A stretch of DNA of 64,000 nucleotides from Nostoc calcicola FACHB-3891 (GTDB lineage: Bacteria; Cyanobacteriota; Cyanobacteriia; Cyanobacteriales; Nostocaceae). This document shows, piece after piece, positions 29,875 to 37,536 of the stretch. The notes below the pieces were generated by a model, which was given only the letters and a program-made list of their open reading frames with translations, was not told where the DNA came from and made no database searches. Location: NCBI RefSeq assembly GCF_014697355.1, contig NZ_JACJRQ010000010.1, positions 124,001 to 188,000 of the forward strand, in the 5' to 3' direction. The translations under genes and the position numbers were made by a program. The first letter of the stretch is position 1. The number at the start of each line of letters is the position of its first letter.

Positions 29875-29955
29875 GGGGTCGCGATTGGCGTTCGACTGCT
29901 CCGAAACCAACAAACGGACGGTTGCAGGATTCGGGTTCAATTCCCGACGACTCCA
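29875..29955 (+). ncRNA. tmRNA-like tRNA domain without an mRNA-like part
   Basis: GGGGTCG (29875-29881) pairs with CGACTCC (29948-29954), 7 of 7 with one G-U, followed by discriminator A. A canonical T-arm TCGGG-TTCAATT-CCCGA occupies 29931-29947. The 5' part carries TTGGCGTTCGAC, like the conserved GG.TTCGAC of tmRNA, and there is no normal D or anticodon arm. Instead CTGC/GCAG and TCCG/CGGA form a short P2-like stem with a bulge. It looks like the tRNA-like domain of a tmRNA with tag frame and pseudoknots absent, about 81 nt. No CCA is encoded. Confidence 0.55.
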
Positions 29956-30056
29956 CTGTCAAAAAAGCAAAAGTAGAGACGCGAGTAATCGCGTCTGTGC
30001 AAAAGTTAAAAGGCAAAAGAAACAAAAGAATAATTTCTATTATTCTTAACAAACTT

Positions 30057-30267
30057 GGGTCTGTAACTCTAATGGTAGAGCGCCTGGATTCATTCACTTG
30101 TGCCCTGACAGAAAAAGCTTACATACTTGCTCAAAGGTAGAGCGATCGTCTCTAAAACGATAAGTGCAGGTTCAATTCCTGCGGTGTTACCACAGCTTTT
30201 TCAACTTGTACGAGGTGTGAGTGCAACTCTCACAGGGAAGGTATCGGTTCAATCCCGATCAGATCCA
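30057..30267 (+). ncRNA. tRNA-like fold interrupted by a Y-RNA-like element
   Basis: GGGTCTG (30057-30063) pairs over its full length with CAGATCC (30260-30266), one G-U, with discriminator A. D-arm CTC..TAATGGTA..GAG is at 30067-30080 and T-arm ATCGG-TTCAATC-CCGAT at 30243-30259. Between the D-arm and a hairpin TGTGAG-TGCAACT-CTCACA (30216-30234, in the anticodon-arm position but lacking U33) lies the whole Y-like element at 30095-30217. The halves of one cloverleaf are thus ~150 nt apart. Whether it is processed, charged or purely structural is unknown. Confidence 0.6.
30095..30217 (+). ncRNA. Y-RNA-like element 1, with tRNA-like module
   Basis: Outer strands CACTTGTGC (30095-30103) and GTACGAGGTG (30208-30217) pair imperfectly. 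The inner stem GAAAAAGC (30111-30118) / GCTTTTTC (30195-30202) is perfect; between the stems lie CCTGACA and AACTT. Inside is a cloverleaf-like set: D-arm GCTC/GAGC, anticodon-like arm ATCGT-CTCTAAA-ACGAT and T-arm GCAGG-TTCAATT-CCTGC. The acceptor end is closed by the Y stem, so it cannot have free tRNA ends. This is the design of bacterial Y RNAs. It lies 100 nt upstream of the gene at 30317. Confidence 0.72.
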
Positions 30268-30268
30268 T

Positions 30269-30298
30269 TAAATAATTCGTAATTCGTAATTCGTAATT
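30269..30298. repeat. STRR heptamers (GTAATTC)
   Basis: About four AATTCGT units between the first structured RNA and the ribosome-binding site of the next gene. Confidence 0.75.
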
Positions 30299-30316
30299 AA
30301 AAAAGAGGTGATTGTG

Positions 30317-30517
30317 ATGGTTCATATTCGATTTGAAGGACGTTCTGTTGATGTTGTAGAAACACAACTGGGAATTACAGCAAGTATGAATGATATGGCA
30401 GTGAAGGAGCAGGTGGCGCGGCATTTGGATGTAAATAGCGATCGCCTTTCTGCTTACGTAATCGATCGCCGTCCCAGCGGGGATTTGATTGTGCGTCCTG
30501 AAGCTGTCTATGGTTAG
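30317..30517 (+). CDS. Small possible ubiquitin-like (beta-grasp) protein ending in Gly
   Basis: 66 residues from ATG 30317 ([13 protein letters not shown]), preceded by AGAGGTG. Predicted order is beta hairpin ([19 protein letters not shown]), helix ([16 protein letters not shown]), then strands ([15 protein letters not shown]) and C-terminal EAVYG. Size, beta-beta-alpha-beta layout and terminal Gly fit a ubiquitin/ThiS-like modifier. An E1-like enzyme is encoded at 36898 in the same cluster. It is flanked by Y-RNA-like elements. The fold and its conjugation are inference; no Gly-Gly is present. Confidence 0.55.
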
Positions 30518-30561
30518 ATAAATTCTCCGCGTCTCCCACTCTCCGCGTCCCCGTGTCTTCT

Positions 30562-30699
30562 TTCCGCACCCTAACTTGTAAAGCCTACACACCATCCGGC
30601 AACGGATATACAGGTTCGATTCCTGTCGCTTCCACTGATGGGAGCGTAGCCAAATTGGTAAAGGCAACTGTGAAAATTGCTTTGCTAACTTGTGCGGAA
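30562..30699 (+). ncRNA. Y-RNA-like element 3, enclosing a circularly permuted tRNA-like fold
   Basis: Outer stem TTCCGCAC (30562-30569) / GTGCGGAA (30692-30699), internal loops CCTAACTT and TAACTT, inner stem GTAAAGC (30578-30584) / GCTTTGC (30679-30685). Inside, the 3' half of a tRNA comes first: variable-arm hairpin ATCCG-GCAA-CGGAT, T-arm ACAGG-TTCGATT-CCTGT, acceptor strand CGCTTCC and A (30594-30634). Then CTGAT, then the 5' half: GGGAGCG (30640-30646), D-arm GCC..TTGGTAAA..GGC. GGGAGCG and CGCTTCC pair 7 of 7 with one G-U. CACA/TGTG pairing at the anticodon-stem position joins the Y stem. Confidence 0.75.
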
Positions 30700-35543: not shown

Positions 35544-35722
35544 CTAGCTAGTCCTTTTAAATCTATGCGAATAACTAAAGAACAATCATCATACACAATA
35601 CCATGCAGTTGACATAAGTTGTCAATTCTTTTTCAAATTATACATATTCTAAACTTCGGTGAAATCTAGAAAGCCTACTGCCCATAGTTAGCAATAATGC
35701 CCAATATGGTGATGTCCCTCTA

Positions 35723-35836
35723 GTAAGGGACTTGCAATTAAAAAAAATAATCAATCGCTGTGTAGGCAGGGGAGCAGGGGGAGAAGAAAAATATCATCTG
35801 AATAAATTGGGTAATTTCTTCTCTGGAAGTCCCTAA
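35723..35836. mobile_element. MITE-like element, AGGGACTTCCA family, copy C
   Basis: TAAGGGACTTGCA (35724-35736) and TGGAAGTCCCTAA (35824-35836) bound a 113-bp element. The interior CAATCGCTGTGTAGGC then AGGGGAGCAGGGGGAG is the reverse-strand counterpart of copy A. It ends 16 bp before the Y-RNA-like remnant at 35852. Confidence 0.75.
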
Positions 35837-35851
35837 CTGAGAACACGCAAT

Positions 35852-35873
35852 GCTTCACCAACTTGCACGCAGG
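35852..35873 (+). ncRNA. 3' arm of a Y-RNA-like element (remnant)
   Basis: GCTTCACCAACTTGCACGCA matches the 3' strands of the complete elements (GCTT..(C/T)AACTTG(C/T)(A/G)CG) but no 5' partner strand is visible. The MITE copy C lies directly upstream and may have destroyed it. The spacer position, ~95 nt before the gene at 35967, repeats the pattern seen for the other genes of the cluster. Confidence 0.4.
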
Positions 35874-35966
35874 AAATAATTAGATTAACTCGTAATTAAT
35901 AAAGTTATATTTTATACCTATCTTTAGATTGCATTTGTAGCGGATTTTAAATAATTGGTATTAGTT

Positions 35967-36797
35967 ATGAGTAACATATTTAAGCTAATCAACCAAATTG
36001 CTGATGCCGAAGCACATCTGTATGCAACTCAATTTCTTGCCCCTTGTGTAAAAGGTGGACGAGTTCGCACACGAGTAGCTGGGATGGTCTACACCTTCAG
36101 ACCAAAGCCTAGTAAATTTGAAGGTTGGGGCATCTTTCAGCCTGTGGATGAGAAGACAGCAACAGTTGTGGAAGAAGCAGATTTACCCCAAATTACCGAA
36201 TATCTGCAACACTTTCCCCAAATACGGCTGCGGTTAGCACACCAATTGCGGGGACAAACTTGGTTAGCATACCCTGTGAATGAAGCTGATGTGCGTCAAC
36301 GGTTGCAGGTGGTGAAACCGATCGCCATTCATTTAGTAACTGAAGGTATCATCTTTGACCAAATCATTGCCCGCTGGAATGGACAATCCTGCTGGTTTGA
36401 GGAAATCGATCGCCGTACCGATCCGGAAATTGTTGAAACTCTGCAATCTGCTGTTAAAGAAGTTATTCCGGTTGAAGAATTGCAATTCAAAGGCATCACT
36501 CCAGAAATCCGCACGGTGTATGAATTAGCAACTGCGCGAATTGATGGCTTTGCTCAACCCCAACAGGATGAAAAACGATTGAAAAAAGCATTGCAGATGG
36601 GCGGCGGTGAATTAAAACAGTTCCAAGATCGCGGCGATTACTGGACAGTCGATTGGACAACTGCTGATGGTGTTCGCCACAGTAGTGCGATCGCCAAAAC
36701 TGACTTGACTGTAATCAGTTCCGGTATTTGCCTAAGTGGCTACGATCGCGACTTCGACTTGCAATCCTTAGTAGCTGTCATCGAACAACAAGAGTAG
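35967..36797 (+). CDS. Uncharacterised 276-residue protein of the Ro/Y-RNA cluster
   Basis: 276 residues from ATG 35967 (MSNIFKLINQIADAEAHLYA). Notable segments: TQFLAPCVKGGRVRTRVAGM, VYTFRPKPSKFEGWGIFQPV, IRLRLAHQLRGQTWLAYPVN, CWFEEIDRRTDPEIVETLQS and the C-terminal WTVDWTTADGVRHSSAIAK then GICLSGYDRDFDL. No signal peptide or membrane segment. I do not recognise a named domain. A GRVRTRVAG basic strand and beta-rich C-terminus could bind nucleic acid. It lies 100 nt upstream of the E1-like gene, likely co-transcribed with it. Confidence 0.7.
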   Translation: MSNIFKLINQIADAEAHLYATQFLAPCVKGGRVRTRVAGMVYTFRPKPSKFEGWGIFQPVDEKTATVVEEADLPQITEYLQHFPQIRLRLAHQLRGQTWLAYPVNEADVRQRLQVVKPIAIHLVTEGIIFDQIIARWNGQSCWFEEIDRRTDPEIVETLQSAVKEVIPVEELQFKGITPEIRTVYELATARIDGFAQPQQDEKRLKKALQMGGGELKQFQDRGDYWTVDWTTADGVRHSSAIAKTDLTVISSGICLSGYDRDFDLQSLVAVIEQQE

Positions 36798-36897
36798 TGA
36801 AAGAAGAATTCAGGAGTCAGAATTCAGAATTCAGAAGTCAAACAGGTTTAATACCGAGTATACAATCTAAAATCCAAAATCTAAAATCCAAAATCGA

Positions 36898-37536
36898 ATG
36901 ACTATCTTTTTTCACGAACAGCTTTACCGCAGCAATTTTGTGATGGCAAAATTGAAAAAGTATTCTGTAACCATTTGTGGGGCGGGAGCGTTAGGAGCTA
37001 ATATTGCTGAAAATTTGGCTCGGTCTGGTTTTGAGAAACTTACAGTCATCGATCGCGATCGCATTGAGGAGCGTAATCTTTCCACCCAGCCTTACTACCG
37101 TTCTGATGTCGGAGCATTTAAAGCAAAAATATTGGCGAACAATTTATATCGAGCAATTGGTACTAAAGTTGATGGCAAAACAAAAGAATTGACATCCGCA
37201 AATGTAAATCTATTACTCCAAGATAGCCAATTAATTATCGATGTTTTTGATAATAGCGTTGCACGTCAATTAGTAAAAGATTATGCAGATAAATTTAGCA
37301 TTCCTTGTCTTCATGCTGGGCTAGCATCTGATTATGCAGAAGTTATTTGGAATGACTTTTATCGTGTGCCCTCTGAGGTGAATGATGATGTTTGTGATTA
37401 TCCGTTGGCACGAAACTTAGTCATGTTAACCGTTGCTGTAGCATGTGAAGCAATTGTCTCATTCATTGCCATAGCAGAAAAGCGTAACTTCACCATTACT
37501 CTGAAGGATTTGACTGTGCAATCTTTGTTTTTGTAG
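36898..37536 (+). CDS. ThiF/E1-like adenylyltransferase
   Basis: 212 residues. Rossmann-type E1 domain: VTICGAGALGANIAENLARS (ATP loop), VIDRDRIEERNLSTQPYY (Asp and Arg/Asn of the E1 active site), KAKILANNL, and DVFDNSVARQLVKDYA. Cys in IPCLHAGLA could serve as a thioester or just structural residue; no CXXC zinc pairs are present. Compact compared with MoeB/ThiF (~250). E1-like enzymes adenylate the C-terminal Gly of ubiquitin-like proteins; the 66-residue protein at 30317 is the obvious candidate substrate. Start at ATG 36898 keeps the HEQLYRSNFVMAKL helix. Confidence 0.85.
   Translation: MTIFFHEQLYRSNFVMAKLKKYSVTICGAGALGANIAENLARSGFEKLTVIDRDRIEERNLSTQPYYRSDVGAFKAKILANNLYRAIGTKVDGKTKELTSANVNLLLQDSQLIIDVFDNSVARQLVKDYADKFSIPCLHAGLASDYAEVIWNDFYRVPSEVNDDVCDYPLARNLVMLTVAVACEAIVSFIAIAEKRNFTITLKDLTVQSLFL

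Follow-up and report, generated by a model that had tools for sequence, protein, structure and literature searches.

A Ro60-like locus of cyanobacteria combines Y-like RNAs of varied modules with a glycine-ended small protein and an E1-like enzyme

Ro proteins carry RNAs that resemble tRNA, and the reason for this is still being sought. Y RNAs mimicking tRNA are already known beside Ro genes, and here we describe a locus of Nostoc calcicola FACHB-3891 that offers many versions of such RNAs side by side, with one handle and a changing display. The locus lies in a 64,000-nucleotide stretch (the window) taken from this 9.03-Mb genome, and joins a Ro60-like protein and a series of Y-like RNAs to a 66-amino acid protein ending in glycine, an E1-like adenylyltransferase, a paralogue of ribosomal protein L7/L12 and two proteins without assigned family, P2 and P7. 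Their co-occurrence and fixed order indicate that these parts in all likelihood form one linked system.

We compared the window with its homologues in a set of 121 stretches, made up of the window itself, 40 stretches picked for spread from the matches of a genome search and the best 80 of 211 named loci; many end early, so that a gene absent from a stretch is not thereby absent from the genome. Genome-wide co-occurrence was counted in 195 genomes, 70 with Ro and 125 without, 5 of 75 Ro matches (G031, G065, G090, G109 and G144) having been left out as fragments or weak. The locus holds the following features.

29748-29796, plus strand: promoter candidate, with the TrcR-type box TGTAGTAT at 29748-29755, TTGACA at 29760-29765 and a second box-like sequence, TGTAATAT, at 29789-29796
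30098-30213, plus strand: Y-like RNA 1, class B, Ro-type stem with a tRNA module, anticodon CUA (ARAGORN)
30317-30517, plus strand: 66-amino acid protein with C-terminal Gly, candidate ubiquitin-like protein, co-occurring with Ro
30564-30697, plus strand: Y-like RNA 2, class C, Ro-type stem with a circularly permuted tRNA module
31038-31766, plus strand: P2, 242 amino acids, no family assigned, in 65 of the 121 stretches
31777-31894, plus strand: Y-like RNA 3, class B, Ro-type stem with a tRNA module, anticodon CAA (Rfam tRNA, 52.4 bits)
32087-32467, plus strand: ribosomal protein L7/L12 paralogue (TIGR00855, 98.9 bits, cut-off 84.4), in 41 of the 121 stretches
32675-32744, plus strand: Y-like RNA 4, class A, Ro-type stem with a short hairpin and no tRNA module
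32864-34297, plus strand: Ro60-like HEAT-ring and vWA protein, 477 amino acids, by predicted fold
35828-35870, plus strand: 3′ remnant of a sarcin-ricin/GTPase-centre Y-like RNA that is whole in relatives
35955-36797, plus strand: P7, 276-280 amino acids (start at 35955 or 35967), followed by the E1 gene within 700 nt in 79 of 79 cases
36898-37536, plus strand: ThiF/E1-like adenylyltransferase, 212 amino acids, with an invariant Cys166 (alignment A6; PF00899, 97.5 bits)

The proteins that the original prediction had listed are thus all present, and the scores bear out its L12-type paralogue and its E1-like enzyme. Its reading of the HEAT and vWA protein as Ro-like agrees with structure prediction, which gives a HEAT-like ring joined to a vWA domain, the Ro60 fold; Pfam TROVE (PF05731) did not match this protein at E 0.1. 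The metal ion-dependent adhesion site (MIDAS), said to be intact, is so at five columns, D300, S302, S304, T362 and D386, which are invariant in the alignments, phage included, and which we take to be its positions. Among cyanobacteria the protein is 65-96% identical, and that of Nostoc sp. FACHB-973 is 96% identical to the window protein; one of the alignments, A2, was built from 49 of the 80 named loci together with the window. A TROVE protein recognized by Pfam lies elsewhere in the same genome (C24:80785-81570; L181, L182), and the Ro-like gene is tandemly duplicated in L041/L144 and L038/L125. The two proteins called unknown, P2 and P7, and the 66-amino acid protein matched no family in Pfam or NCBIfam and no solved structure; the predicted structure of P7 has a mean local confidence (pLDDT) of 54.

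Are these genes inherited together? The glycine-ended protein was found in 66 of the 70 Ro genomes and in 0 of the 125 others. For E1 the counts were 68 of 70 and 2 of 125, one of these two holding a Ro fragment and the other being 66% complete; Ro, the 66-amino acid protein and E1 occur together in 65 genomes. E1 is distant from Ro in several genomes, about 2.5 Mb away on the single contig of G060, and their co-occurrence even when far apart points to a link that is more than neighbourhood. All homologues found in the stretches lie on the Ro strand, and stretches with more than one core gene never depart from the order 66-amino acid gene, Ro, P7, E1: the small gene lies upstream of Ro in 101 of 101, P7 downstream in 81 of 81, and E1 downstream in 79 of 79, each time no more than 700 nt past P7. 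P2 (65/65) and the L12 paralogue (41/41) also lie upstream, their mutual order being reversed once (L034). The system is patchily distributed among genomes.

The RNAs follow the same pattern. The four complete elements of the window share approximately a 5′-proximal YYGYR-CCCYRAY and a 3′-terminal ACTTG-YRCGR, which close a five-pair stem, and inside it an inner stem around AAGC/GCTT. A strict motif of the 5′ strand, in which no pairing is demanded, matched exactly these four sites in the window (0 in 100 shuffles) and nowhere else in the whole genome, confirming the four elements first described (the remnant is real too, as the end of an element that relatives have whole); the motif was found in 60 of the 70 Ro genomes and in 1 of the 125 others, one that holds a Ro fragment. 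The reversed pattern, used as control, gave 0 matches in this genome and in all 195. A full finder, which requires the closing stem, the inner stem, CC close to the 5′ end and A[AC]TTG, returned 372 elements on the gene strand of the 121 stretches, 43 of them unclassed, and 3 on the opposite strand; an earlier finder (1236 vs 796), judged noisy, was superseded by it. At least one element is present in 117 of the 121 stretches, and in 111 of 115 once 6 near copies by Ro gene are set aside. Among the outcomes that the original prediction had named beforehand as telling against it are genes that do not co-occur in other genomes and RNA elements missing near orthologous Ro-like genes; on both counts the opposite was found.

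What do these RNAs carry? A common ACUUG-ended stem bears different modules, namely a tRNA, a permuted tRNA, helices 69 to 71 (H69-H71) of 23S rRNA, or the sarcin-ricin loop together with the GTPase-associated centre, and the window retains both tRNA types, a bare stem and the remnant of a sarcin-ricin/GTPase-centre element. In class B the module is an ordinary tRNA, complete with its D, anticodon and T arms and joined to the Ro-type stem by its acceptor, and its anticodons across the stretches are many and different (ARAGORN). In class C the order is T arm, acceptor closed by a loop and D arm, which is the order of the YrlA model. That Rfam model scored 21.9 bits in the window and at best 38.2 among three loci tested, below its gathering threshold of 69; two class C elements of L066 match it end to end (38.2 and 33.7 bits). 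With a base-paired end stem and a tRNA-like module beside Ro, the elements can be counted as bacterial Y RNAs in the wide sense.

Covariation supports both structures. Of 83 class B elements in the length range, 41 were non-redundant, and alignment A8 holds 32 of these and 1 phage element, and alignment A9 holds 19 of 25 class C elements (from 54) and 1 phage element, those omitted having mostly long variable arms or insertions. In A8, 95.5% of cells were paired and 20 of 34 pairs had changed on both sides, the high pairing being partly by construction in the helices that the finder demands, and class B having been assigned partly by ARAGORN; on none of the five measures did any of 500 shuffles reach the observed value. 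The figures for A9 were 94.8% and 14 of 27, and here a single shuffle of 500 reached the observed value on one measure and none on the other four; in both alignments the structure was taken from one row, which favours it in the slide control. Since closing and inner stems are prerequisites of the finder, independent evidence comes best from the closed acceptor of class C, which the finder does not require and which is paired in all cells, with 6 of its 7 pairs changed on both sides. The ACUUG of the 3′ strand is invariant in A8 and A9, but the finder requires A[AC]TTG; this sequence may resemble the vertebrate Ro-binding site. In several Y-like RNAs the T loop is interrupted, always at one spot (GGT...), by palindrome-like insertions, as in L031 (7161-7316), L076 (7971-8126) and L091 (9373-9520), which resemble a small mobile repeat that prefers tRNA T loops.

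Other modules copy the ribosome. A search for large-subunit (LSU) rRNA and tmRNA in the genome of the window found none, and the 23S yardstick was therefore taken from another genome. Elements of about 180 nt contain H69-H71, in permuted order as read by eye (BLAST gave 12 rows on the gene strand, among them one of 28 nt at 96%, and 0 on the opposite one), and elements of about 200 nt contain the sarcin-ricin loop followed by the GTPase-associated centre (54 rows against 1); 6 of the 72 gene-strand rows and 1 of the 2 other-strand rows fall outside both 23S regions, in spacer or flank. The sarcin-ricin 12-mer occurs 55 times on the gene strand and once on the other, in 47 of the 55 cases no more than 160 nt from a GTPase-centre core, and cmscan independently assigns one stretch of this kind to LSU positions 1093-1148 (46.9 bits at E 5.5e-11, a little under the gathering threshold of 50). 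These elements lie downstream of Ro in 44 stretches and upstream in 11, and all 11 upstream ones sit within a tRNA array; arrays of 8-31 tRNAs lie upstream of the 66-amino acid gene in 18 of 101 stretches. A further module, class F (CTCCACC...GGTGCGTAC...GTACGCTGCAAGCCTGA...TATAGCAGGC), recurs directly before the Ro gene (in Ro-gene orientation, L058 8829-8948, L109 7950-8091 and L118 9854-9980); the one copy tested gave no meaningful Rfam match, and no tie of this module to any rRNA was found. Upstream of and around Y-like RNA 1 the window holds two more RNAs.

29875-29958, plus strand: element like the tRNA-like domain of tmRNA, with no mRNA part (Rfam tmRNA, 41.1 bits, E 7e-14, gathering threshold 47)
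30057-30267, plus strand: composite RNA, a tRNA-like shell GGGTCTG...CAGATCC whose anticodon arm is swapped for the Ro-type stem of the inner element (by eye)

The tmRNA-like element was matched by BLAST in 33 of the 121 stretches, window included, in some only in part, and the shell in 45 (5′ half) and 43 (3′ half), window again included, with a few of these through short or repeat matches.

When would the locus be expressed? The box TGTAGTAT lies no more than 1500 bp upstream of the 66-amino acid gene in 84 of 101 stretches, often beside TTGACA. With near-identical Ro genes removed the count is 79 of 96, against 16 of 96 on the reverse strand of the same interval and 20 of 96 in the 1500 bp after Ro. 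An extract of PMC10272220 gives TGTAGTAT as the TrcR site at the promoter of the Anabaena trn operon, a stress-induced, TrcR-repressed tRNA operon, and adds that TrcR in Anabaena also represses rtcB (PMC10272220). A TrcR-type box before the locus predicts, from sequence, that the locus would be silent until translation stress.

The small protein and the E1 look like partners. The terminal Gly is present in 71 of 71 copies from named loci and in 5 of 5 phage copies, and conservation reaches it, in phages too, in the form RPxA[VI][YF]G. In the E1, residues G28, G30, G33, D52, D54, D118, N119 and R123 are invariant (A6), and we presume their roles to be the familiar ones. An E1 adenylation domain and a Gly-ended partner, two of the marks of an E1-ubiquitin-like pair, are both present; the 66-amino acid protein is a candidate ubiquitin-like protein, and its beta-grasp fold and its conjugation are putative.

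The system also occurs in viral contigs. The 595-kb genome of an uncultured phage (LR756511.1) encodes a Ro protein 48% identical over 99% of the query, with the 66-amino acid protein and Y-like RNAs before it and P7 and E1 after it. Six IMG/VR contigs (37 to 390 kb, viral by the calling of that collection) carry Ro, P7 and E1 as well; 4 of the 6 hold the small protein and Y-like elements and 2 hold neither, one of these ending 1.4 kb upstream of Ro. Seven viral stretches therefore share Ro-P7-E1, and 5 of the 7 have the Gly-ended protein and Y-like elements. The phage stems are of the same kind as the cyanobacterial ones, with different yet paired bases. In phages the Ro stem also occurs as a hairpin within a tRNA-like frame (5 stretches hold 11 cases between them, against 0 on the opposite strand, some first spotted by eye and afterwards counted with a looser finder), for example in L151 7833-9910, L157 7635-8826 and L160 6861-8498; such an RNA would have tRNA-type ends. 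The looser finder returned 0 elements of this type in the cyanobacterial stretches. In a plasmid collection only two records hold a Ro-like protein, and one of them, L152 (Dolichospermum pAfl69), has an annotated HEPN-domain gene between Ro and P7 (820-1188). That phages carry copies suggests a unit worth carrying in contests over translation.

What lies between Ro and P7 varies from strain to strain, and this gap may be a hot spot of insertion. In some relatives KptA follows Ro (13 of 41 stretches), ahead of P7 if the stretch reaches that far; the same post-Ro island holds an AAA ATPase in 13 of 41, a DRB0094-type RNA ligase in 8 of 41 (the copy tested scored 151.9 bits, cut-off 151.15), DUF6939 in 5 of 41 and a Nudix-like protein, named by eye, in 5 of 41. 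In the window the gap holds another pair of genes.

34493-35543, minus strand: ExbD/TolR and MotA/ExbB genes

The pair, which the original prediction had passed over along with the box at 29748 and the shell at 30057-30267, lies in the gap in which relatives hold the sarcin-ricin/GTPase-centre element. It was matched in 0 other of the 121 stretches; we rejected it as a member of the system, and it is probably a local insertion outside it.

On the predicted fold of Ro and on the RNA structures, co-inheritance, gene order and promoter box observed here, we propose a translation-stress Ro ribonucleoprotein whose RNAs act as decoys or tethers, and we give this full explanation a probability of roughly 0.5. 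Translational stress would lift TrcR repression of the locus, and Ro would bind every Y-like RNA by the common stem. The free end of each RNA would then display a copy of an exposed part of translation: the anticodon and elbow of a tRNA, a closed acceptor, the head of tmRNA, H69-H71 of 23S rRNA or, in some loci beside an L12 paralogue, the factor-binding centre of sarcin-ricin loop and GTPase-associated centre. Such displays could pull cutters or blockers (anticodon nucleases, rRNA-cutting toxins, perhaps antibiotics) onto the Ro particle, or could attract the repair and modification enzymes that recognize those sites; in the fuller loci, KptA and RNA ligase would repair damage there. E1 would adenylate the terminal Gly of the 66-amino acid protein, which would then go, P7 probably taking part, to a protein of the Ro particle or of the ribosome. 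We favour decoys or tethers because the modules copy exposed functional sites and keep their sequence there, and because several topologies preserve shape over connection. For the tRNA-like domain of YrlA, one possible role considered in the accessible part of PMC7790460 is to inhibit an anticodon nuclease by competition. Of what the original prediction had proposed, the single system is strongly supported and the Ro fold supported; the link that it drew to stressed ribosomes or tRNA gains from the 23S modules and from the TrcR-type box, and stays conditional.

Several observations weigh against this explanation. The same extract (PMC7790460) notes that the nuclease concerned does not use YrlA itself as a substrate. 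The TrcR-type box is commoner than chance elsewhere in these loci too, and the strict RNA motif is missing from 10 of the 70 Ro genomes. Within the RNAs, pairing of the class C D stem reaches no more than 57.6% of cells, 23 of 33 class B sequences do not form one of the acceptor pairs, and elements of classes A and F copy nothing identifiable. The L12 paralogue is present in 41 of 121 stretches and GTPase-centre elements in 51, and the 21 that have both are about what chance would give. Scans of the 66-amino acid protein returned no beta-grasp model among the Pfam and NCBIfam hits, which were scattered, weak and unrelated (best E 0.0021), and PDB and ThiS profiles gave no support for such a fold. 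Lastly, the rRNA-type element of the window is broken, and its Ro-P7 gap holds none of KptA, AAA ATPase, RNA ligase, DUF6939 or Nudix-like protein; with no KptA or RNA ligase near Ro and this element broken, repair would lie outside the minimal system.

A more far-reaching version, possible and on balance doubtful, makes the particle a sentinel: an attacker or factor engaging a sacrificial mimic would trigger E1 activation of the Gly-ended tag, in cyanobacteria and large phages alike, and the mimics (two tRNA topologies, the tmRNA head, H69-H71, and sarcin-ricin loop with GTPase-associated centre) would together outline the exposed surface of translation.

The main rival of decoys, which we hold to be a tentative alternative with rather less than an even chance, is that the modules are address tags, each recruiting a resident enzyme (modification enzymes, nucleases, ligases or factors) to Ro and so yielding a set of specialised Ro machineries that process or degrade damaged ribosomes and tRNAs. 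In bacteria, tethering through a Y RNA is the mechanism already described, in the text available from PMC4726728 and PMC7790460, and KptA, RNA ligase and AAA ATPase share an island in some relatives, whereas the drawing of the modules from exposed functional centres, in several permutations, fits such tags less well. By analogy with Deinococcus, tethering of processing enzymes may hold alongside decoys. It is doubtful that the locus is instead a mobile anti-phage or anti-toxin module, with phages and cyanobacteria contesting translation and the fast-changing Ro-P7 gap carrying effectors; its presence in seven phage or predicted viral contigs and in two plasmid records, one with the HEPN-domain gene in the gap, and its patchiness in genomes speak for mobility, but the 65-96% identity among cyanobacteria and the TrcR-type box suggest rather a routine role under stress.

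Alternatively, E1 and its Gly-ended partner might carry sulphur, serving to thiolate or otherwise modify tRNA or the mimics, with no protein conjugated. Thermus TtuB and eukaryotic Urm1 are Gly-ended carriers of that kind for tRNA thiolation, and the nearest profiles of the E1 are ThiF/MoeB-like, all below their cut-offs. We consider this unlikely: the 66-amino acid protein does not align with the ThiS/MoaD set of related genomes (19 rows, probability <1%). A PRTRC cassette was considered and rejected, PRTRC_ThiF scoring 47.6 bits against a cut-off of 144.75 and PRTRC_C matching 0 of 39 members; a PRTRC_C search in 292 genomes was uninformative, its controls being silent too. That the RNAs are decayed pieces of tRNA arrays drifted beside an unrelated operon is very improbable, for although tRNA arrays do lie upstream in 18 of 101 stretches and some elements have insertions or are broken (35828-35870), covariation, the strand bias of 372 against 3, genome-wide co-occurrence with Ro and the paired stems of phages contradict a reading as tRNA pseudogenes.

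The locus may be a new stress or self-defence system for translation, in cyanobacteria and some large phages. It would tie translation stress naturally to RNA quality control and to an E1 pathway, in some relatives with RNA-repair enzymes and tRNA arrays, and its constant stem with variable modules, 23S centres among them, makes decoy and tether ideas testable by module swapping.

How does the locus compare with known systems? The papers listed in literature searches, judged mainly by titles and abstracts and with subscription papers sparsely covered, yielded no description that joins Ro and Y-type RNAs with E1 and rRNA-derived modules. Cyanobacteria have inducible long tRNA arrays (L-arrays). 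With these arrays and the Anabaena trn operon, as far as the accessible description of the latter goes, the locus shares the TrcR-type box and the arrays present in 18 of 101 stretches; unlike L-arrays, the window has two tRNAs by ARAGORN and no long tRNA run, and the plasmid collection has but its two Ro-like records. PRTRC and other prokaryotic E1-ubiquitin-like cassettes likewise pair a small Gly-ended protein with a short ThiF protein, and the profile scores given above separate the PRTRC cassettes from the locus. Archaeal tRNA clusters, in the passage available from PMC6333295, hold a TROVE gene in 20 of 29 clusters. A TROVE-type gene beside tRNA genes is what they have in common with the locus, and that passage names no Y-like arrays, E1 or 23S modules.

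Burroughs and Aravind reportedly described RNA-repair sets with Rot/TROVE and Y RNA in 2016. A TROVE protein is presented as the platform of RNA-repair sets with Y RNA in an extract of PMC7824862. The likeness here lies in KptA and RNA ligase near Ro in relatives, to which the locus adds the pair of Gly-ended protein and E1 and the rRNA-derived modules. In Deinococcus, according to excerpts, a Y RNA ties the Ro60 protein Rsr to PNPase (PMC4726728, PMC7790460). The bacterial Ro60 (Rsr)/Y RNA systems, Salmonella rsr-yrlBA-rtcBA and Deinococcus RYPER, share with our locus the Ro ring with vWA domain, the adjoining Y-type RNAs and the tRNA-like module. The locus differs from them in a Ro-like protein without a Pfam TROVE match, in several RNAs per locus, in modules that are canonical, permuted or 23S-derived, and in the company of a Gly-ended protein, E1 and P7.

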